This document shows, piece by piece, positions 26,536-37,514 of a stretch of 64,000 nucleotides of DNA. Source of the DNA: Acholeplasmataceae bacterium (GTDB lineage: Bacteria > Bacillota_I > Bacilli_A > Acholeplasmatales > Acholeplasmataceae); contig JAGYLU010000002.1 of assembly GCA_018400755.1 (NCBI GenBank), positions 62,001 through 126,000 on the forward strand. The letters are read 5' to 3'. The position numbers and the translations under genes are program-made. Below the pieces are notes generated by a model that worked only from the letters and a program-made list of their open reading frames with translations, had not been told where the DNA came from and ran no database searches. The stretch's first letter is position 1. Each line of letters begins with the position of its first letter.

Positions 26536-26574
26536 GAATAGAGATGACCGAACCATATGAACAAGGAGGATACA

Positions 26575-27663
26575 ATGACGTTTCGCATACTGGCAATCAA
26601 CCCAGGATCAACGAGTACCAAGATCGCTTTATATGACAATGATCAAGAGGTATTCAGGACAAACATCAGGCATGATGTGAAGACCTTATCAACGTTTAAG
26701 AAGATCATCGATCAGTTCGCTTACCGGTTAGATGCGGTCACCGATACCCTCAAAGAACACGGGATCAACCCATCATCACTTTGTGCTGTCGTCGGGCGGG
26801 GCGGGATGTTAAGGCCCATTGAAAGCGGCACCTATGGAGTCGATCAGGTGATGGTCAAAGATATGGAAGAGGCTGCCCGTGGCGAGCACGCTTCGAATCT
26901 TGGTGCAGTCATCGCGAAGCGGATGGCTGATGACATCGGGATCAAAGCCTTTATCGTTGACCCGGTCGCGGTGGATGAGATGGAGGATATCGCCCGCTAC
27001 ACGGGTATGCCAGAGATCAGACGGGTCTCGCTTTTTCATGCGCTCAATCAGAAAGCGATCGCATTGAAAGCGGCCAAAGACCTTGGTAAGGATTATCAGG
27101 ATCTAAACCTGATTATCGCCCATCTGGGCGGAGGAATCAGTGTTGGGGTCCATCATAAGGGACGTGTGATCGATGTCAACAACGCCCTTGACGGCGATGG
27201 ACCGATGTCGCCTGAGCGCAGTGGCACAGTGCCTTTGGGGCCCCTTTATAAAATGGTCTTCTCAGGTCGCTACACACTAGAGGAGATCAAGCGTAAGAAC
27301 TACGGTAACGGCGGGCTTGTTGCTTATTTGGGGACCAATGATGGCAGCCAGATCCGGAAAATGATTGATGAAGGCGATACGTTTGCCGCTTTCATCCAAG
27401 ACGTCATGTGCTATCAGATCGCCAAAGAGATTGGGGCAGCCGCGACGGTCTTGGAAGGGCAGGTCGATCGGATCGTTTTGACCGGAGGTCTTGCCTATGA
27501 TGGGCGGATCACTGATCATATCATAAGGCGGGTGGCGTTTATCAGCGATGTCATGACTTATCCTGGTGAGGATGAGATGGAAGCGCTCGTCTTAGGGGCA
27601 TTGAGAGTGCTTCAAGGCAAGGAACAAGCCAAAATTTATGGGCAGGTGTTAGAACATGATTAA
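26575..27663 (+). CDS. buk: Butyrate kinase
   Basis: The 362-residue acetokinase-superfamily protein has ILAINPGSTSTKIALYD, GRGGMLRPI, the catalytic region IIAHLGGGISVGVHHKGRVI, and DVNNALDGDGPMSPERSG, all typical of Buk. It makes ATP and butyrate from butyryl phosphate. AAGGAGG supports ATG 26575. The stop overlaps ptb by 8 bases. The order buk-ptb is the reverse of the common clostridial ptb-buk. Branched-chain acyl specificity is possible. Confidence 0.92.
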   Translation: MTFRILAINPGSTSTKIALYDNDQEVFRTNIRHDVKTLSTFKKIIDQFAYRLDAVTDTLKEHGINPSSLCAVVGRGGMLRPIESGTYGVDQVMVKDMEEAARGEHASNLGAVIAKRMADDIGIKAFIVDPVAVDEMEDIARYTGMPEIRRVSLFHALNQKAIALKAAKDLGKDYQDLNLIIAHLGGGISVGVHHKGRVIDVNNALDGDGPMSPERSGTVPLGPLYKMVFSGRYTLEEIKRKNYGNGGLVAYLGTNDGSQIRKMIDEGDTFAAFIQDVMCYQIAKEIGAAATVLEGQVDRIVLTGGLAYDGRITDHIIRRVAFISDVMTYPGEDEMEALVLGALRVLQGKEQAKIYGQVLEHD

Positions 27664-28555
27664 ATCCATGAATGATCTGATCAATGAAGCCAAAAAAGTG
27701 AAGAAAGCGACATTGGTCGTTGCTATGGCCAATGACAAACCTGTTTTGGAAGCGGTCAAGGCAGCCAAACAGGATGGTTTGGTCGACGTTGTTTTGGTCG
27801 GTCCCAAAACCGAACTTTGTGAGATGATGAATGATCTTGGTATGGCCCATGAGGACTATGTGGTTATTGATCAAAGTGATCCAGTCGCGGCTTGTCTGCA
27901 AGCGGTCAAACTGGTATCAACGAAGAAAAAGCATTTTCTGATGAAAGGACTTGTTGATACATCAGTGATCCTAAAGGCTGTCTTGGACAAAGATATCGGG
28001 CTTCGAACGCCGAACCGATTGTCTCATGTCTCGGTCATGGAAGTTGCCGGGTATCATAAGTTTCTGTTGATGACCGATGGGGCGATGAACACCTATCCGG
28101 ACGTTGATACGAAGCAAGAAATCATTGAAAACAGCTTGTTGGTGACAAGAGCTCTAGGGATCACTCATCCCAATGTGGCGTGCATCGCTGCGGTAGAGAA
28201 GGTCAATCCGAAAATGCCTGCCACCTTGGACTGTCAAGCGCTTGTCGACCGTTACTTGAATGGTCGGATCAAGGGATGTGCCGTTGGTGGCCCATTTGGT
28301 TTGGACAATGCCATCAGCAAGGATGCGGCATTGCACAAAGGGATCCTTGATCCGATGGCCGGTGATATCGATGTCTTGTTGATGCCGCAAATTGAAGCCG
28401 GCAACGTGTTTTATAAGACCATGATGTTTCTCGCCAACGCGAAAAGCGCGAGTGTCATTGTCGGTGCCAAGAAACCGGTGGTCCTGACCAGCCGGGCGGA
28501 TACGAAAGACACAAAATATCAATCCATCGCCCTCGGAGCATTGATGGCTGACTGA
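27656..28555 (+). CDS. ptb: Phosphate butyryltransferase
   Basis: The 299-residue protein is of the phosphate acetyl/butyryltransferase family (LMKGLVDTSVILKAVLDKD, LLMTDGAMNTYPD, GGPFGLDNAISKDAA, LLMPQIEAGNVFYK). It exchanges CoA for phosphate on butyryl-CoA, feeding Buk for substrate-level ATP formation. The start overlaps the buk stop by 8 bases, with CAGGTG 7 bases before ATG 27656. It lies 29 bases before hutH, so acyl-phosphate ATP generation and histidine fermentation appear co-expressed. Confidence 0.92.
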   Translation: MIKSMNDLINEAKKVKKATLVVAMANDKPVLEAVKAAKQDGLVDVVLVGPKTELCEMMNDLGMAHEDYVVIDQSDPVAACLQAVKLVSTKKKHFLMKGLVDTSVILKAVLDKDIGLRTPNRLSHVSVMEVAGYHKFLLMTDGAMNTYPDVDTKQEIIENSLLVTRALGITHPNVACIAAVEKVNPKMPATLDCQALVDRYLNGRIKGCAVGGPFGLDNAISKDAALHKGILDPMAGDIDVLLMPQIEAGNVFYKTMMFLANAKSASVIVGAKKPVVLTSRADTKDTKYQSIALGALMAD

Positions 28556-28584
28556 CACACAACCAGATAAAAAAGGATGGGACT

Positions 28585-30105
28585 ATGATCACACTTGATG
28601 GAAACAGCATGACACTGAAGACGTTGATAGAGATTGCCTATGATCACCCGTTGGTCACGATCTCTGATGCGGCATTACAATCGGTCGAAGACGGCGCTAA
28701 CGTGGTCAGTGATATCCTTGAGACAGGACATCCTGTCTATGGCATCAATACCGGATTTGGACATCTCGCATCTGTTGCCATTGACCTATGTGATGTCAGA
28801 ACACTGCAGGTCAATCTTTTGAAGAGTCATGCATGTGGGACAGGAAAACCCCTTGACAAAGCCACTGTCAGGGCAATGATGGCACTCCGGATCAATGCCC
28901 TTTCGAAAGGCAGAAGCGGAATCAGGAAAAACACGCTTTTGCGTTTGCTGGACTTCTTGAATCAAGACATCATCCCAGTTGTCTTTGATCAGGGCAGTTT
29001 AGGTGCGAGTGGAGACCTTGTACCGCTTGCCCATATGGCACTACCGTTGATCGGATGTGGTGAGGTTTTCCACAAGGAAAAACGGATGCCGGCAAGAGAA
29101 GCGCTCATTAAGACAAAGATCGATCCGGACTATGTGCTTTATGCCAAGGAAGGATTGGCCCTGATCAACGGGACCCAAGCGATGGGCGCGATTGGTGCGC
29201 TTGCCCTTCATGACGCGATGAGGCTCTATCATCTTTCGAATCTGTCCTATGCGCTTACGATGGAAGCCCTTGAAGGGATCAGTGATGCCTTAGACATCAG
29301 GGTCCATGAGACACGTGGTCATCATGGCCAACGTCTGGCAGCTGAAGAAATGGCATTCTATCTTTCTTCCAGCAAACACTTGAAAAAACCTGATCGAAAG
29401 CGGGTGCAGGATGCTTACAGCTTACGCTGTGCGCCTCAGGTCCATGGCGCATCTTTGGGGGTTTTTCATCATGTTGAAGAGGTTCTTCAGACAGAAATGA
29501 ATGCTGTCACCGACAATCCGTTGGTCTTTGTCGAGGATCAAAGTGCCATCTCAGCTGGTAATTTCCATGGTCAACCACTTGCTTTGTCATTTGACTACAT
29601 GGCGATGGCGGTCAGTGAACTTGCCAATATCAGTGAACGACGGATTGAACGTCTCGTCAACCCACAACTCTCTAATGGGTTACCGGCTTTTCTTACCCCT
29701 CATCCCGGGTTGAACTCCGGATTCATGATTGTGCAGTACGCGGCCGCATCCATTGTCAATCAGAACAAGACATTCGCTTATCCTGCCTCTGTGGATTCCA
29801 TTCCCTCATCCGCCAATCAGGAAGACCATGTATCCATGGGATTCAATGCGGCAACCAAAGTCAGGATGATCATTGATAACAGTTTCAAAGTCATTGCCAT
29901 GGAACTTCTTTCTGCGGCCCAAGCCCTCGAGTTTAGGGGGATCACCGGCTTGGGTAAGGTGACTGAAACACTCTATCACCGCATTCGAAAAGATATTCCT
30001 GTGGTCAATAACGATACGGAAATGCATATTCTGATCCAAGCGATGGAAAAACGTCTCTGTCAAGGTGACTTCGACGATCTCTTCTTGGACAATCAAAAAA
30101 CATAG
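28585..30105 (+). CDS. hutH: Histidine ammonia-lyase
   Basis: The first enzyme of histidine degradation makes urocanate and ammonia. The 506-residue protein contains the MIO cofactor triad Ala-Ser-Gly in GSLGASGDLVPLAHM, YGINTGFGHL near the N-terminus, LINGTQAMGA, and QDAYSLRCAPQVHG. Length matches the family. AAAGGATG precedes the start. Confidence 0.98.
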   Translation: MITLDGNSMTLKTLIEIAYDHPLVTISDAALQSVEDGANVVSDILETGHPVYGINTGFGHLASVAIDLCDVRTLQVNLLKSHACGTGKPLDKATVRAMMALRINALSKGRSGIRKNTLLRLLDFLNQDIIPVVFDQGSLGASGDLVPLAHMALPLIGCGEVFHKEKRMPAREALIKTKIDPDYVLYAKEGLALINGTQAMGAIGALALHDAMRLYHLSNLSYALTMEALEGISDALDIRVHETRGHHGQRLAAEEMAFYLSSSKHLKKPDRKRVQDAYSLRCAPQVHGASLGVFHHVEEVLQTEMNAVTDNPLVFVEDQSAISAGNFHGQPLALSFDYMAMAVSELANISERRIERLVNPQLSNGLPAFLTPHPGLNSGFMIVQYAAASIVNQNKTFAYPASVDSIPSSANQEDHVSMGFNAATKVRMIIDNSFKVIAMELLSAAQALEFRGITGLGKVTETLYHRIRKDIPVVNNDTEMHILIQAMEKRLCQGDFDDLFLDNQKT

Positions 30106-30118
30106 GAGGCGTCATCAT

Positions 30119-31282
30119 ATGTTGACGACTGAAAAACTCAAACGCATCCTTCTTATTGTCTCAATCATCACCATCACCATTTTGGGGCTCTATCTCACCA
30201 AATTGTTTGCTGATCAGGTTCTTTCGCGCTTTATCAGCGCGGCGAAAGCGGTCATCATTCCATTTGCCATCGCCTTCTTTCTATCGTTTTTGATTGGACC
30301 TTTGGCCAAATGGATGGAGGCGCGTTTGAAAATCAAACGGTCTCTCGCCATTCCCCTAGCCATTGCCATTGGTGTCACAGGATTGCTTCTGATCATCACT
30401 GTCTCGGTCGCATTCCTGGTCTCGGAGATGACCTCGATCATCCGTAGTTCCTTGAATGCCATTTCCGATCAAGGGGTGATGGACCTCATCAATGCCGCCC
30501 TTCAACAGTTTGAGAGCCAGTTTGCAGACGTCGATATGGACCAGATTGTGAGTGCCATCAATGGAAGCGGTCTGTCGTTGTCCGTGCTTGCAGGTATTCT
30601 CTCACAATCCATTGTCTTTATCATGGTTCTTTTCCAATCCTTGTTCTCAGCCTTCTTCACGGTACTCTTGACACCAGTGTTCCTCTATTATCTCGTGAAG
30701 GAAAAGTCAACCATTTTCAATGAGATCTCAATGCTTGCCCCAACGAAGATCAGGGTCCATGTTGTCGAGCTTGGCCGCCGTGGCAATGATGTGATTGGCC
30801 ATTATTTCAAAGGCCAAGGGGTGATGATGACCTTGATTTTTGTGTTTTTCGCCGTCACACTGACCATATTGAGTTTCTTTATCCCCAATTTCACGGTCTT
30901 TCATGCCTTGTTGTTCGCCTTGTTGATGGGGTTATTCGCGATTGTGCCCTATGTCGGGGCTTGGATTGGCTTGGCTTTGCCCGTGCTGTTCTTGTTTTCA
31001 AACCGACTTGATGCCATCGATGTTGGTCAGGATGGACGGATCTTTGTGATCGCCATCATCATTGTCGTGATTCTCCAGATTGTCGAACAAGTCATTGAAA
31101 GCAGTATCGTCTCACCGATGGTGATGGGCAAAGAAGTCAAAATTCATCCCCTTGCCGTTTTGTCCGCATTCATTTTCTTCGGGGGTTTGTTCGGCTTTGT
31201 CGGTGTGCTTCTAGCGGTGCCCATGGCGGGGATGACCAAAGCGATCATCAGTTATTTGTTTGAACTGAAAGACAAACGATAA
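30119..31282 (+). CDS. AI-2E family transporter
   Basis: The 387-residue polytopic protein has the family layout: two N-terminal helices, a soluble stretch (about residues 110-180), then five or six helices ending in a conserved part (ALLMGLFAIVPYVGAWIG, VEQVIESSIVSPMVMG, IHPLAVLSAFIFFGGLFGFV). Members of PF01594 include Na+/H+ antiporters and exporters; none is assigned by sequence alone. Its place between hutH and hutU suggests transport tied to histidine use, such as uptake of substrate, export of product, or ion balance, but this is inference. AGGAGG sets ATG 30119. Confidence 0.88.
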   Translation: MLTTEKLKRILLIVSIITITILGLYLTKLFADQVLSRFISAAKAVIIPFAIAFFLSFLIGPLAKWMEARLKIKRSLAIPLAIAIGVTGLLLIITVSVAFLVSEMTSIIRSSLNAISDQGVMDLINAALQQFESQFADVDMDQIVSAINGSGLSLSVLAGILSQSIVFIMVLFQSLFSAFFTVLLTPVFLYYLVKEKSTIFNEISMLAPTKIRVHVVELGRRGNDVIGHYFKGQGVMMTLIFVFFAVTLTILSFFIPNFTVFHALLFALLMGLFAIVPYVGAWIGLALPVLFLFSNRLDAIDVGQDGRIFVIAIIIVVILQIVEQVIESSIVSPMVMGKEVKIHPLAVLSAFIFFGGLFGFVGVLLAVPMAGMTKAIISYLFELKDKR

Positions 31283-31311
31283 CCATCCATTGTTCATGAA
31301 AGGGTGATTCT

Positions 31312-33330
31312 ATGACACATATCAAAACACTTAAAGATCTGATGACCAGGATCCCCGATCCTTGTGTGTTTGATCCCGGGATCAGGCGGGCCCCCAAAAG
31401 GTCCGTCAACCTTTCGCCAGAAGACCAGGCACTTGCTCTTAGAAATGCGCTCAGATACATTCCAAAGGCGTGGCATGAGACACTCGCTCCGGAATTTTTG
31501 GCCGAACTTTTGACACGGGGTCGGATCTATGGGTATCGCTTCAGGCCCAAAGAACGGATGAGAGGGAAACCGTTGGATGCGTACCAAGGACGAACGCTGG
31601 AAGGGAAAGCCTTCCAAGTGATGATTGATAACAATCTTGATCCCGAAGTGGCCTTGTATCCTTATGAACTCGTCACCTATGGCGAGACCGGACAAGTGTG
31701 CCAGAACTGGATGCAATACCGTTTGATCAAGGCATACCTCGAAGACATGACACATCACCAGACCTTGGTTGTGATGTCAGGTCATCCACTCGGCCTTTTT
31801 GCATCCGATCCGTCCTCGCCGAGGGTGATCATCACCAATGGTCTGATGGTCGGATTCGCAGATGATCAGGACCATTTCAACCGTGCCGCGGCCATTGGTG
31901 TCGCCAACTATGGCCAGATGACGGCTGGTGGTTGGATGTACATCGGCCCTCAAGGCATTGTCCATGGCACGTATTCGACATTGCTTAATGCCGGTCGCTT
32001 GAAACTTGGTCTTGGAAACGAGAAGAACCTTCAAGGCAAACTGTTCGTCTCTTCCGGACTTGGTGGTATGAGTGGTGCCCAAGGGAAAGCCATCACCATC
32101 GCTGGTGGGGTTGGCATCATCTGTGAGGTCGACCGATCACGGATTGAGACCAGGAAACAACAAGGCTGGGTGTCGTGGGTCACAGATGATGCCAAGGCGG
32201 CATTTGCCCGCGCCAAAGAAGCCCAAAAGGCCTTTGAGGCGATGGCCATTGCCTATCACGGCAATGTGGTTGATTTACTTGAGTATGCTGTCGACCATCA
32301 TATCGAGATTGATCTTCTTTCTGACCAAACCAGTTGTCACGCCGTCTATGATGGCGGATACACCCCAGTCGGTCTTTCATTCGAAGAGCGCACCGCGCTT
32401 TTGGAACATGACAAGGACCGGTTCAAGAGGTGTGTCGATGACAGTCTCAAGAGACATTACCTAGCCATCAAGACCTTGTCTCAAAGACACACATACTTCT
32501 TTGATTACGGGAACAGTTTCCTGAAAGCCTTATACGACTCCGGCATCAAGGAGATTTGTCAAAACGGTATCAATGACAGTGATGGGTTTGTTTTTCAGTC
32601 ATATGTTGAAGATATCATGGGTCCGATCCTCTTTGATTATGGATACGGTCCTTTCAGATGGGTCTGTCTTTCAGGGAAAGAAGACGATCTGAAGGAAACC
32701 GATCGGATTGCCTTGATGACCATTGACAAAGACCGACGGTTCCAGGATCTTGACAACTGGCTATGGATCAAACATGCCGAAGAGAACAAACTCGTGGTTG
32801 GGACCAAAGCCAGGATTCTCTATTCGGATGCCAAAGGTCGGATGGACATCGCTTTGGCGTTCAACAAACGGATCCGGGAGGGCAAACTTGGCCCAATCAT
32901 GCTCGGCCGGGATCATCACGATACCGGTGGCACCGACAGCCCGTTTCGGGAAACCGCCAACATCCGTGATGGGTCCAACATCATGGCGGACATGGCGACG
33001 CAGGTCGCTCTTGGAAATGCGTCTAGGGGAATGAGTTTGGTCGCCCTTCACAATGGGGGTGGTGTCGGTATCGGGAAAGCCATCAATGGTGGATATGGGA
33101 TGGTCCTAGATGGGTCTCTAGAAGTCGATCATCGCTTGCAGCAAGCGATGACCTTTGATGTCATGGCAGGGGTTGCCAGAAGAGCGTGGGCAACCAATCC
33201 TCATGCCATGGAGACCGCAATCCTGTTCAATCACGAGAAAGAAGATGCCCATGTCACAATTCCCGAAGTGGCAGATGACGCGCTCATCAGCCGGGCTTTG
33301 AGAGAGACCGAGAAGAAAGGAGCATCATGA
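31312..33330 (+). CDS. hutU: Urocanate hydratase
   Basis: The second step of histidine degradation converts urocanate to imidazolonepropionate with tightly bound NAD+. The 672-residue protein is the long form, larger than the roughly 550-residue Bacillus enzyme. It shows QNWMQYRLIKAYLEDM, MVGFADDQDHFNRAAAIGVA, TAGGWMYIGPQGIVHGTY, SSGLGGMSGAQGKA and the HALF-like DQTSCHA region. The stop overlaps ftcD by 4 bases. Confidence 0.97.
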   Translation: MTHIKTLKDLMTRIPDPCVFDPGIRRAPKRSVNLSPEDQALALRNALRYIPKAWHETLAPEFLAELLTRGRIYGYRFRPKERMRGKPLDAYQGRTLEGKAFQVMIDNNLDPEVALYPYELVTYGETGQVCQNWMQYRLIKAYLEDMTHHQTLVVMSGHPLGLFASDPSSPRVIITNGLMVGFADDQDHFNRAAAIGVANYGQMTAGGWMYIGPQGIVHGTYSTLLNAGRLKLGLGNEKNLQGKLFVSSGLGGMSGAQGKAITIAGGVGIICEVDRSRIETRKQQGWVSWVTDDAKAAFARAKEAQKAFEAMAIAYHGNVVDLLEYAVDHHIEIDLLSDQTSCHAVYDGGYTPVGLSFEERTALLEHDKDRFKRCVDDSLKRHYLAIKTLSQRHTYFFDYGNSFLKALYDSGIKEICQNGINDSDGFVFQSYVEDIMGPILFDYGYGPFRWVCLSGKEDDLKETDRIALMTIDKDRRFQDLDNWLWIKHAEENKLVVGTKARILYSDAKGRMDIALAFNKRIREGKLGPIMLGRDHHDTGGTDSPFRETANIRDGSNIMADMATQVALGNASRGMSLVALHNGGGVGIGKAINGGYGMVLDGSLEVDHRLQQAMTFDVMAGVARRAWATNPHAMETAILFNHEKEDAHVTIPEVADDALISRALRETEKKGAS

Positions 33331-34292
33331 TGAAACAAATCGTCCAATGTGTGCCAAACATATCAGAAGGCCGTGATGAGAGCATCATTCATGCAATTAC
33401 CGAACCACTCAAAGAACAAAAGGGGTTCAAACTGGTCTCTGTTGAGGCAGATCCGAATTACAATCGCAGTGTGATCACTTTGATTGGTGATCCCAAAGCG
33501 ATGGAAGAACCGCTGGTCCGTTTTTTTGGGAAAGCGCTTGAACTGATCGATATGAGGACACATCAGGGTGAACACCCCCGAATGGGCGCTGTCGATGTCC
33601 TTCCCATCATCCCGATTGCCGGTGTGACCACGGATGAGGCGGTTGCCATGGCCAAAGCGTTGGCAGAAAAAGTCAGTCAGACATACCAGCTGCCAATCTA
33701 TCTCTATGCCTTGGCAGCGACAACTGAGGACAGGGTCAATCTCCCAACCATTAGAAAAGGTGAGTTCGAAGGTCTCAAAGAAAAAATGAAAGATCCTGTG
33801 TGGGTTCCGGATGTTGGACCAAATAAGCCTCATGAGACATTTGGTGCGTGTGCCATCGGCGCTCGCAACCCGTTGTTGGCATATAACATCAACCTCATGA
33901 CCAATCAGATCAAGGTTGCCAAAGCGATTGCCAGAACGATCAGAAAATCAAGTGGTGGATTCCAGTATGTTCAAGCGGGTCCGGCGATGATTGAAGAGAC
34001 AGATTCTGTTCAGGTCACGATGAATATTCTAGACCACTCCAAAAATCCGATTTACCGAGTGCTTGAGATGGTCAAGATGGAAGCCAGACGGTATCATGTC
34101 GACATCCCTTCAAGTGAGATCATCGGTCTGGTTCCAAGGAGCGCTTTGCTTGAGAGCATCAAATATTATCAAGCGTGTGCCGATGAGCCCCATGACAAAG
34201 ACATCGATCTTGAAAGGCTTGCTCGGTTGGCCGTCGACAAACTGGGGCTGACGGCGTTTGACCACACGAAGATCATCGAGTGGCACATATGA
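33327..34292 (+). CDS. ftcD: Glutamate formimidoyltransferase
   Basis: The enzyme moves the formimino group of N-formimino-glutamate to tetrahydrofolate, releasing glutamate. The 321-residue protein corresponds to the transferase half only (QCVPNISEGRD, HQGEHPRMGAVDVLPIIP, YNINLMTNQIKVAKAIA). The cyclodeaminase half is a separate gene, fchA, in the same operon. Overlaps of 4 bases on both sides point to tight translational coupling. Confidence 0.97.
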   Translation: MMKQIVQCVPNISEGRDESIIHAITEPLKEQKGFKLVSVEADPNYNRSVITLIGDPKAMEEPLVRFFGKALELIDMRTHQGEHPRMGAVDVLPIIPIAGVTTDEAVAMAKALAEKVSQTYQLPIYLYALAATTEDRVNLPTIRKGEFEGLKEKMKDPVWVPDVGPNKPHETFGACAIGARNPLLAYNINLMTNQIKVAKAIARTIRKSSGGFQYVQAGPAMIEETDSVQVTMNILDHSKNPIYRVLEMVKMEARRYHVDIPSSEIIGLVPRSALLESIKYYQACADEPHDKDIDLERLARLAVDKLGLTAFDHTKIIEWHI

Positions 34293-35575
34293 AAGCCAGA
34301 CATGAACACGCCGATGTCTTGATCAGAAACATCAAAACCCTTTATACGAACCAGCAATGTCCGCCCCTCAGAGGCAAGACCTTGGGAACCCTTGTTTCCA
34401 TTGATGAGGCATGGATTGCGGTCAAAGATGGGAAAATCATGGCGTTTGGAAACGATGACCACGTCCCATACTGTGATGAACAGACCATCTTCTTTGATGC
34501 TGAACAGACGATTGTCACCCCCGGATTCATTGATTCCCACACCCATTTGGTGCATGGCGGATCAAGAGAAGCGGAGTTTGAAGCGCTCGTTCATGGGGTT
34601 CCTTACCTAGAGATTCTAAGACAAGGTGGCGGGATCCATCAGACCGTGAAAGACACCAGAAGGGCATCGTTTGATGATCTCTACATCCAAGCCAAGACGT
34701 CACTTGATGTCATGCTATCTTATGGGGTCACAACCATTGAGGCGAAAAGCGGTTATGGGTTAGACATCGAAAACGAACGCAAACAGTTGCTGGTGGCCGA
34801 GGCATTGAACCGGGATCACCCGATGACGATTGTCTCCACATACATGGGAGCGCATGCGATACCACCTGAACACCAGGGCAATCCCGAGGCATATGTCAAA
34901 GAGATCATCAAAGATCTCAGTGTGATCAAGGATGAGGGGCTTGCCACATCGGTCGATGTCTTTTGTGAGGAAGGGGTCTTCACCCTTGAGCAAACGGAAC
35001 GGATCTTGAAGGCGTCGAGTGAACTAGGGTTCATGAGACGACTTCACGCTGATGAGATCAAGCCTTTGGGTGGCGCCGGACTAGGTGTACGCTTAGGAGC
35101 GAGGAGTGTGGACCATCTCTTGGCGATCTCGGATGAGGACATCAAACGTCTCTCTGAAAGCGACACGGTCGCGAACTTGTTGCCGGGGACCGCTTTCTAT
35201 CTTGGTAAAACGTACGCGCGCGCACGTGAGATGATTGATGCCGGTGTTGCCGTCTCTGTCTCAGGCGATTACAATCCAGGCAGTTCACCAACCGAGAATT
35301 TTCAGTTCATCATGCAACTTGCGGCTTCAAAAATGCGCATGACCCCAGAAGAAATCATCAATGCGGTGACTGTGAACGCCGCTTATCATCTAGGACTTTC
35401 GGACAGCGTGGGATCGATTGCCATCGGCAAGCGTGCCGATCTGGTGATGCTCGATGTCCCAAATTTGAGTTATGTCTTTTACCATTATGGGATCAACCAT
35501 GTCAAACATGTGATGAAAGATGGTATTATGGTGATCTCAAATAAAAATCAAAGGAGGAGCCAACATGGAACTTGA
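34289..35575 (+). CDS. hutI: Imidazolonepropionase
   Basis: The third step of histidine degradation opens the imidazolone ring to formimino-glutamate. The 428-residue amidohydrolase has the metal site FIDSHTHLVHGGSREAEFE, TTIEAKSGYGLD, RLHADEIKPLGGAGL, SVDHLL, and SGDYNPGSSP. ATG 34289 overlaps the ftcD stop (ATGA); GTG 34280 is also open. The end overlaps fchA by 11 bases. Confidence 0.97.
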   Translation: MKARHEHADVLIRNIKTLYTNQQCPPLRGKTLGTLVSIDEAWIAVKDGKIMAFGNDDHVPYCDEQTIFFDAEQTIVTPGFIDSHTHLVHGGSREAEFEALVHGVPYLEILRQGGGIHQTVKDTRRASFDDLYIQAKTSLDVMLSYGVTTIEAKSGYGLDIENERKQLLVAEALNRDHPMTIVSTYMGAHAIPPEHQGNPEAYVKEIIKDLSVIKDEGLATSVDVFCEEGVFTLEQTERILKASSELGFMRRLHADEIKPLGGAGLGVRLGARSVDHLLAISDEDIKRLSESDTVANLLPGTAFYLGKTYARAREMIDAGVAVSVSGDYNPGSSPTENFQFIMQLAASKMRMTPEEIINAVTVNAAYHLGLSDSVGSIAIGKRADLVMLDVPNLSYVFYHYGINHVKHVMKDGIMVISNKNQRRSQHGT

Positions 35576-36194
35576 AGGACTCAGACGATTCATCAATGAC
35601 GTTGATTCTAACCAACCGGCACCAGGAGGTGGTTCGGTCGCTGCCCTCTCGGGTGCGCTTGGCGCATCCCTTGTCCGTATGGTCGGTCAGTTGACCGTCA
35701 CGAAAAAGAAGTATCAGACTCACGACCCCTTGGATCGCGCTGATTTTGAGAAAGCGATCGATGTCATGGGGAGACTCAAAGAACGATTCATGAATGCCAT
35801 TGAAGAGGATACCGAGGCATTTGAGGCCGTGATGGAAGCCTATCGGCTACCCAAATCGACCGATATGGAGATACTGATCAGGAAAAAGTCGATTGAAAAG
35901 GCATCGATTCGGGCCATCCATGTCCCATTGACGGTTGCCAATGACGCGCTTGAAGCACTCGGACATCTAGAGGTCTGTATCAAGTGCGGCAATCCGCGGA
36001 CCATGTCTGATCTGGGCGTCGGACTCTTGATGTTCAACGCCGCACTCGAAGGCGCGCTCTTCAATGTCAAGATCAACCTGCCCGATATCGACGAGATCAG
36101 ACGGGGATCCTATGAGACCAATGTCAAGGAGATCAAGGCAAGGGCAAAAGAGCTGACTGATCCTTTGAAGGAGAAACTTGAGTCTCTGATTTAA
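35565..36194 (+). CDS. fchA: Formiminotetrahydrofolate cyclodeaminase
   Basis: The 209-residue helical protein begins with QPAPGGGSVAALSGALGASL, typical of the FTCD_C family, and later has the family-like CIKCGNPRTMSDLGVG. It turns formimino-THF into methenyl-THF and ammonia. The resulting one-carbon unit can be recovered as ATP if formyl-THF ligase is present; that gene is not in this window. AAAGGAGG lies within the end of hutI. A strong terminator follows. Confidence 0.96.
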   Translation: MELEGLRRFINDVDSNQPAPGGGSVAALSGALGASLVRMVGQLTVTKKKYQTHDPLDRADFEKAIDVMGRLKERFMNAIEEDTEAFEAVMEAYRLPKSTDMEILIRKKSIEKASIRAIHVPLTVANDALEALGHLEVCIKCGNPRTMSDLGVGLLMFNAALEGALFNVKINLPDIDEIRRGSYETNVKEIKARAKELTDPLKEKLESLI

Positions 36195-36227: not shown

Positions 36228-36256
36228 AAGGATGCGGTGATGTCGCATCCTTTTTT
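36228..36256 (+). terminator. Intrinsic terminator of the hut operon
   Basis: AAGGATGCG (36228-36236) and CGCATCCTT (36244-36252) form a 9-bp stem ending in a T-run. Confidence 0.92.
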
Positions 36257-36444: not shown

Positions 36445-36473
36445 TTGACTTTTCATCATCGGTTTAATATAAT
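36445..36473 (+). promoter_or_regulatory. Promoter of the tandem peptide operon
   Basis: TTGACT (36445-36450) and TATAAT (36468-36473) are separated by exactly 17 bases. It is among the best promoter matches in the window. Transcription would start near 36480, giving a leader of about 45 bases. Confidence 0.8.
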
Positions 36474-36523
36474 CAAGGTGTAAGTTAAATAAATCAATCA
36501 AATAACCGATAAGGAGACATAAA

Positions 36524-36631
36524 ATGAAATTAAAAATTAACAATAATCATAAGCAAAACCCGGTGACCCTCAAGGCTCACATGCTCGAAGGATTCGGTCA
36601 GGATCGCTTTGAACTCCTGACATACCGCTGA
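36524..36631 (+). CDS. Tandem small peptide 1 (35 aa)
   Basis: AAGGAG at 36511-36516 lies 7 bases before ATG 36524, and the frame ends at TGA 36629-36631. The C-terminal 19 residues are KAHMLEGFGQDRFELLTYR, identical to peptide 2. The N-terminal half (MKLKINNNHK) is basic and polar and differs from peptides 2 and 3. There is no signal peptide, membrane segment or cysteine. A variable N-terminus with a fixed C-terminus resembles peptide precursors in which the C-terminal part is active, but no known family is recognised. Confidence 0.75.
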   Translation: MKLKINNNHKQNPVTLKAHMLEGFGQDRFELLTYR

Positions 36632-36654
36632 TTGACAAACTAAGGAGAATGAAC

Positions 36655-36762
36655 ATGAACCAGAAAATCAAAAAGAATGAACACATCGAACTGGTGAGTC
36701 CCAAGGCTCACATGCTTGAAGGATTCGGTCAGGATCGCTTTGAACTCCTGACATACCGCTGA
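36655..36762 (+). CDS. Tandem small peptide 2 (35 aa)
   Basis: The start is ATG 36655, with AAGGAG at 36642-36647 seven bases upstream. An in-frame ATG at 36649 is too close to the Shine-Dalgarno. The N-terminus is MNQKIKKNEHIE and the C-terminal core KAHMLEGFGQDRFELLTYR. The gene is offset exactly 131 bp from peptide 1. The core DNA of the two differs by a single synonymous base (CTC/CTT), so the duplication is recent or the DNA is constrained. Confidence 0.78.
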   Translation: MNQKIKKNEHIELVSPKAHMLEGFGQDRFELLTYR

Positions 36763-36785
36763 TTGACCAAATAAGGAGAATGAAC

Positions 36786-36893
36786 ATGAACCAGAAAATC
36801 AAAAAGAATGAACACATTCAAACGATGTGCCTCAAAGCTCACACCCTTGAAGGACTTGGTCAGGATCGCTATGAACTCCTGACATACCGCTGA
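36786..36893 (+). CDS. Tandem small peptide 3 (35 aa)
   Basis: This is the third unit, again offset by 131 bp, with AAGGAG 7 bases before ATG 36786. The N-terminus MNQKIKKNEHI is shared with peptide 2. The core is KAHTLEGLGQDRYELLTYR, with three conservative replacements relative to units 1 and 2 (M20T, F24L, F29Y), and there is a cysteine at position 15. The replacements preserve the reading frame and the ELLTYR end, which supports translation and selection as protein. Confidence 0.78.
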   Translation: MNQKIKKNEHIQTMCLKAHTLEGLGQDRYELLTYR

Positions 36894-36926
36894 TTGATAA
36901 GAATCACGAACAAAGGAGATGAACCC

Positions 36927-37040
36927 ATGAGAAAACAAACCAAAAGACAAACCAACACATTAAGACGCACGACGTGCGTTCACACCCTTGAACCACAGTG
37001 CTCGATGCTCTATCTGCAGTCACTCAATCAAACAGTATAA
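36927..37040 (+). CDS. Tandem small peptide 4, diverged (37 aa)
   Basis: AAAGGAG precedes ATG 36927 and TAA ends the frame at 37040. The N-terminus is strongly basic (MRKQTKRQTNTLRR). A segment CVHTLEPQC aligns with KAHTLEGLG of peptide 3, so His19, Leu21 and Glu22 are kept in all four, but the rest (MLYLQSLNQTV end) is different. Two cysteines, at 17 and 25, flank the conserved part. The lipoprotein gene begins 12 bases later, so the five genes form one operon. Function unknown. Confidence 0.68.
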   Translation: MRKQTKRQTNTLRRTTCVHTLEPQCSMLYLQSLNQTV

Positions 37041-37052
37041 AGGAGAACACTC

Positions 37053-37490
37053 ATGAGAACACATATGATCACCATCCTCATCATCCTTGTCTTCTTGCTT
37101 GTTGGTTGTGAAACCAACAGCAATCAGGAATCATTTGTCGACCATAGCGCCATCGTCAGTCTCGAAGACCGCTGTGACTACGAGAGACGGCAACTCTCAT
37201 TTGATGCCGATGGCGGATATGCCACCTTCGAATCATTCAATGGCACGATGACACTTTATGAAATCAATGCCAATGAGCCGATGTCACTCACCGTCAGCAG
37301 TCCTCGGGGACAAAGCAATTTCAAAGTGGTTCTCGTTGACCGTTATGATCGCATCGTCGTTGTTGATCAAAACAACGAGGTCACATTATCCGAAGGGACT
37401 TATCGCCTTCGGTTGGTCGGAGAGAATGCCACTGGATCGGTCTTTGTATCGATTGACTCCGACGCTTTCCAAAGCGTCACCCAAGCATGA
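37053..37490 (+). CDS. Small lipoprotein of the peptide operon
   Basis: The 145-residue product has a signal peptide with lipobox LLVGC (Cys19). The mature domain of about 125 residues is beta-rich and possibly an Ig- or PPC-like sandwich (MTLYEINANEPMSLTVSSP, FKVVLVDRYDRIVVVDQNN, TLSEGTYRLRLVGENATGS). AAGGAG supports the start. It shares the operon with the four small peptides and is followed by its own terminator. By context it could be a surface partner, receptor or protective protein for the peptides, which is inference. It has no recognised family. Confidence 0.8.
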   Translation: MRTHMITILIILVFLLVGCETNSNQESFVDHSAIVSLEDRCDYERRQLSFDADGGYATFESFNGTMTLYEINANEPMSLTVSSPRGQSNFKVVLVDRYDRIVVVDQNNEVTLSEGTYRLRLVGENATGSVFVSIDSDAFQSVTQA

Positions 37491-37514
37491 ACGGTCTTCG
37501 GACCGTTTTCTTTT
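37490..37514 (+). terminator. Terminator with UUCG tetraloop
   Basis: AACGGTC-TTCG-GACCGTT (37490-37507) with a C(UUCG)G loop, followed by TTCTTTT. It overlaps the lipoprotein stop codon and ends the peptide operon. Confidence 0.9.

Follow-up and report, generated by a model that had tools for sequence, protein, structure and literature searches.

Tandem short genes and a lipoprotein gene behind a conserved promoter box in an Acholeplasmataceae genome: candidate outputs of a DUF2089-linked regulon

The window analysed here (64,000 nucleotides of one Acholeplasmataceae genome) contains four short open reading frames (ORFs) in close succession. They raise the question of whether they are genes and, if so, what kind of product they encode. 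The first-pass annotation had described tandem short genes, three at exactly 131 bp and a diverged fourth, for peptides of 35-37 residues. We recovered both the repeats and the ORFs. The 131-nt repeat occurs three times (starts 36510, 36641 and 36772; spacing exactly 131/131), and copies 2 and 3 are 79% and 74% identical to copy 1. An AAGGAG ribosome site is present in front of every unit (4/4). In units 2 and 3, an alternative ATG at 36649 and 36780, respectively, would give 37 aa. Because an ATG 7 nt past AAGGAG fits better than one only 1 nt past it, units 1-3 are read as 35 aa each. The retention of His19, Leu21 and Glu22 in unit 4 was seen in translation, and we agree that there is no signal peptide. 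The features of the locus are as follows.

36228-36252, forward strand: terminator-like hairpin with T tail, behind the FTCD_C gene
36445-36473, forward strand: 11-of-12 promoter, TTGACT-17-TATAAT; the 17-nt spacing between -35 and -10 is common to the homologous sites
36468-36489, forward strand: box of the candidate regulon, TATAATCAAGGTGTAAGTTAAA, which overlaps both the -10 and the presumed start of transcription
36524-36631, forward strand: short ORF 1, 35 aa, MKLKINNNHKQNPVTLKAHMLEGFGQDRFELLTYR; AAGGAG at 36511-36516
36655-36762, forward strand: short ORF 2, 35 aa; start 36655 preferred over 36649
36786-36893, forward strand: short ORF 3, 35 aa; start 36786 preferred over 36780
36927-37040, forward strand: short ORF 4, 37 aa, diverged; His19, Leu21 and Glu22 retained
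37053-37490, forward strand: lipoprotein, 145 aa, lipobox LVGC, with homologues that can be aligned; beta-sandwich predicted by the structure model
37489-37508, forward strand: terminator-like hairpin behind the lipoprotein, closing the unit

Since terminator-like hairpins flank the block and it has its own promoter, the four ORFs and the lipoprotein gene form a separate transcription unit of five genes. The cyclodeaminase gene upstream was assigned to FTCD_C by Pfam. The lipoprotein gene, which starts 12 nt past unit 4, was absent from the first-pass annotation, and its relatives led us to the homologous loci. Its structure model is a beta-sandwich (pLDDT 77). The best PDB matches were mostly cupin-like, with a TM-score of about 0.37, and a cupin-like assignment was considered unconvincing. 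The peptide model (pLDDT 61) was uninformative. Further upstream, a long run of genes on the same strand (26557-36194) reads first as butyrate kinase plus phosphate acyltransferase and then as a set for histidine degradation (hutH, hutU, glutamate formiminotransferase, hutI and FTCD_C, with a permease-like gene inside). This set was read from the ORFs, FTCD_C alone being checked with Pfam, and the run suggests histidine fermentation.

We examined whether the four ORFs exceed chance expectation. The 563-nt stretch contains four ORFs of 28-60 aa that begin with ATG and have an AGGAG-type site. Among 5000 dinucleotide shuffles of the same stretch, 4745 had no such ORF, 252 had one and three had two; three or four were never reached. 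Substitutions among the peptide copies lean synonymous in the core (dN/dS = 0-0.39, based on few sites), and within the window units the C-terminal half is conserved and the N-terminus is variable. Recoding of TGA (table 4) was rejected: TGA acts as a stop in this genome, since 17 large window genes terminate in TGA (8), TAA (7) or TAG (2) and use TGG in frame 36 times. The proposal that the units are real genes, more than chance ORFs, was confirmed by the comparison of four ribosome-site ORFs with a maximum of two in 5000 shuffles.

No peptide sequence match was found outside the locus in the window genome, 88 family genomes, plasmids or phages. Two weak matches in the window genome (L004, L005) overlie other genes and were dismissed. 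A degenerate core pattern had no match in viral contigs, and an Rfam search returned nothing. Profile searches of Pfam, NCBIfam, PHROGs, PADLOC and PDB gave no match, which bears out the statement that the peptides belong to no known family. Homologues with a conserved core had been expected elsewhere; the sequence search found this locus alone, and the relatives became visible by position. The core KAHMLEGFGQDRFELLTYR is private to the window genome because the copies are homogenised within a species and diverge quickly between species. A test based on a conserved core would thus have misled us.

Several of the species compared in this analysis are represented by incomplete metagenome assemblies. 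Both other genomes of the genus, G076 (L007/L127) and G077 (L015/L138), show the order FTCD_C, the same promoter, three tandem ORFs of 33-43 aa and the lipoprotein. Identity of their peptides to the window units is about 15-44%; in G076, the nearest relative, His19-x-[LI]-[ED] is kept at the position noted for unit 4. In the three species together, every one of the ten ORFs has retained a ribosome site and is 33-43 aa long. The ORF set is conserved in position, not in sequence, in two related species. In G077 and in the window, copies within one species are far more alike than copies of other species, which indicates that each species homogenises or re-duplicates its own set.

Beyond the genus, homology between short ORFs of different genera is not demonstrable from their sequences. 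A search with profile A1 retrieved peptides of its own genus alone, and profile A3 did not retrieve the g1 peptides. The short ORFs of g10 and g13 (..ELFMASNDY..) resemble the window peptides (..FELLTYR, ..FELWLNY) by eye; the profile missed this likeness, and it was not accepted as kinship.

The low conservation between species would also be expected if the ORFs were selectively neutral, recently duplicated sequences within an extended 5' region and the unit truly conserved were the box with the lipoprotein. In genus g11, no short ORFs accompany the box and the lipoprotein; the arrangement can therefore exist without the peptides. However, 10/10 ORFs in three species have preserved ribosome site and length, the core changes lean synonymous, and other lineages too have short ORFs following this box. 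Together these points make neutrality improbable. In the g11 loci (L008-L014), the lipoprotein follows a gene resembling the F subunit of NADH:quinone reductase, not FTCD_C, and has a 90-nt AT-rich leader full of AATCAAT-like words.

The promoter is the element by which the locus can be traced further. The pattern TTGACW-17-TATAATYAAGGTGTAARTTAAA-AAATYAAT is extremely specific, and 22 nt are near-exact among the promoters of the three species (common sequence TATAATYAAGGTGTAAGTTAAA). The 21-mer has a single site in the window genome at up to 3 mismatches. When 160 genomes of the order were searched with up to 2 mismatches allowed, the box had 38 sites, versus 4 for a reversed-pattern control. 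Searching 257 Gb of genomes with TTGACN{17,19}TATAATNAANGTGTAARTTAA gave 33 lineage-restricted sites, and viral contigs gave 0 matches; the counts of the two genome scans are not independent, as the genomes overlap in part (e.g., L127 and G076). The record titles of the 33 sites name Acholeplasmataceae, Acholeplasma, Tenericutes, Peloplasma, Izemoplasmatales, or metagenome-assembled genomes labelled Bacilli, Bacillota or Firmicutes. In a profile of 58 sites, conservation runs past the searched pattern into AAATYAAT. Matches with 3 mismatches that lack a -35 or lie inside other genes were taken as chance. At L105, L106, L107 and L108 (G035, G046, G032 and G045), an apparent glycerol-type regulator and an oxidase gene are preceded by a box that has 3 mismatches and lies 17 nt from a perfect TTGACA. 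Judged from sequence, this site could be a related promoter or a regulon member.

What lies behind the box was then classified. The 33 sites lead to a DUF2089-type operon (17), the lipoprotein (10), short ORFs alone (5) or nothing recognised (1). The DUF2089 operon stands directly behind the box at 12/33 sites and follows one or two short ORFs at another 5/33 (L128, L137, L141, L145 and L132); for L132 and several of the direct cases the sequence stretch ends before DUF2089, and the assignment rests on the characteristic first gene. The lipoprotein stands directly behind the box at 8/33 sites, including L124, where the stretch ends inside it and the identification came from the overlapping locus L039; at 2/33 (L127, L138) it follows three short ORFs. 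In two genera the lipoprotein is the conserved partner of this box. The cultured relative Peloplasma aerotolerans M4Ah also has the box in front of the lipoprotein (L131). At 5/33 sites nothing but short ORFs, of 45-69 aa, was recognised, L140 being identified via L034. Altogether, short ORFs of 33-69 aa are the first gene or genes at 12/33 sites, five of them inside the DUF2089 operon. Because short ORFs recur first behind the box in lineages whose sequences cannot be related, position behind the box matters more than any one sequence. This recurrence fits fast-evolving small proteins and leader ORFs alike.

Some sites show further peculiarities. At L128, L137, L141 and L145, the SHOCT-like membrane protein of the DUF2089 operon has a VanZ domain fused to it and comes after one or two short ORFs; at three of these loci, the short ORFs preceding the fusion carry a YDYSxPxxY[WF] motif and cysteines. 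Extra ORFs of 38-45 aa lie within or just behind the DUF2089 gene at L040 (G038) and at the g10 loci L028-L031. At L143 (4335-4377), a box with -35 has no recognisable ORF downstream and is possibly an RNA gene or a chance match.

The window genome has its own DUF2089 gene on another contig (G000:C174:7123-7260, E = 1.5e-21). In the operon there, the DUF2089 Zn-ribbon/HTH protein is accompanied by two SHOCT-like proteins, one of them a small membrane protein; the DUF2089, Zn-ribbon, HTH and SHOCT-like domains were confirmed on homologues. Its box is degenerate, with 4 mismatches (TATAATCAAGTCATAAATTAAA) at the usual spacing. The corresponding box has 4 mismatches in G076 and 1 in G077, where it is near-exact. 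We investigated the association in the family and found the box (up to 2 mismatches) in 28/45 genomes with DUF2089, versus 0/43 of the others (Fisher's test, p = 1.7e-11, uncorrected for phylogeny). In genus g11, the two genomes without DUF2089 (G033, G037) are also without the box.

When a regulator's operon has a box in common with a further unit, this usually signals a small autoregulated regulon, and the placement of the box over the transcription start suggests repression. We therefore favour, with somewhat better than even confidence, the reading that a membrane-stress regulon linked to DUF2089 has the peptides as its outputs, small proteins that evolve fast and have been duplicated in tandem. 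Such a regulon would comprise two operons, the peptide-lipoprotein unit and the DUF2089 operon. DUF2089, the putative binder, would sit on the box GGTGTAARTTAAA over the transcription start and probably repress both its own operon and the peptide-lipoprotein unit. A membrane signal, presumably stress, would pass through the SHOCT-like membrane proteins and release DUF2089; the small soluble proteins and the lipoprotein may then act at or near the membrane. Among the roles offered by the first-pass annotation, a small regulatory protein set comes closest, the tangible pointer being the shared DUF2089-type promoter box, and a bacteriocin is unsupported by composition.

That DUF2089 contexts relay membrane signals to transcription is a published prediction, not a demonstrated fact (PMC11237479). 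The DUF2089-Toastrack/SHOCT envelope-stress contexts described there (PSP/Lia-like) resemble the present case in that DUF2089 occurs with Zn-ribbon, HTH and SHOCT-like parts, has SHOCT-like neighbours and is predicted to transduce membrane signals. However, the sections of that account drawn on here give no operator, regulon or short-ORF outputs, whereas here the box links a DUF2089 operon to a unit of short proteins and a lipoprotein. A 126-129 aa protein of the DUF2089 operon weakly matches residues 3-45 of LiaX, a daptomycin-sensing surface protein (E = 0.002, far below the cut-off); it is much shorter than LiaX, falls below the family cut-off and is not a member.

DUF2089 also appears beside leaderless bacteriocins. 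In bawcin, enterocin DD14 and thucin A, short leaderless peptides, tandem in thucin A and DD14, adjoin a DUF2089 gene (PMC10707071, PMC7332713, PMC9484092). The window units are likewise leaderless, 30-60 aa long and tandem, as in class IId, and such peptides, with the lipoprotein as immunity protein, would agree with the fast divergence and homogenisation of the copies. However, the cationic, fairly hydrophobic, often Trp-rich amphipathic helix that is the signature of class IId was not found in the window peptides. Their GRAVY is -0.80 to -0.91 versus -0.19 for bawcin, they have no Trp, and the amphipathicity of units 1-3 is lower than that of 98-99% of their own shuffles. No ABC/HlyD or bPH2 gene was recognised nearby (in the ORF list of the window and in selected neighbours scanned against Pfam), DUF2089 lies at a separate locus and has a SHOCT-like end, and the g11 lipoprotein does without peptides. 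A bacteriocin is thus quite unlikely. A secreted or imported peptide signal, or the precursor of a modified peptide, would agree with the size, the tandem copies and the rapid divergence; the lack of a signal sequence, and of any modification enzyme or peptide exporter recognised nearby (ORF list; some neighbours scanned), makes it very unlikely.

The short ORFs may also be cis-acting leaders, whose translation, or stalling on the conserved C-terminal end, controls the lipoprotein by ribosome relay. They always lie upstream of a membrane gene, and in the window the conserved C-terminal half behind a variable N-terminus resembles the pattern of arrest peptides. Stops and following starts overlap throughout in G076 and G077 (ATGGCTAAATTACTGA), the lipoprotein start included. 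In the window, by contrast, the ORFs are spaced apart, with a separate AAGGAG for every one. Those of its ribosome sites that were tested are unstructured (fold z-scores -1.5 to +1.6), with no structured leader and no RNA structure hiding a downstream ribosome site found by this test. Moreover, an array of three to four nearly identical arrest peptides would be out of the ordinary, and at L150 and L139 no gene follows closely on the short ORFs behind the box. We consider this explanation unlikely, though it deserves more weight than the bacteriocin, signal and neutral readings.

Returning to the small-protein outputs of a DUF2089-linked regulon, a wider generalisation is offered tentatively and at less than even confidence. 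Wall-less bacteria may possess a regulatory system not described before, in which DUF2089 controls between one and a few operons by way of a box of its own. Its chief products would be lineage-specific mini-proteins of 33-69 aa, duplicated in tandem and evolving rapidly, that serve membrane defence together with a lipoprotein or a VanZ-type membrane protein. Although widespread, DUF2089 is a regulator on which experiments have yet to report, and the published accounts of it examined here, as far as their consulted parts go, name no target. What is new here is a candidate operator for DUF2089, its regulon and its short-ORF outputs; a 22-nt box of such specificity gives a concrete candidate operator and a short list of targets. 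The locus also shows that genes of fewer than 40 residues, unrelatable by protein search, can be found through their promoter and a fixed neighbour. If the peptides are membrane-stress effectors, they would represent a fast-evolving class of small proteins in bacteria whose sole envelope is the membrane.
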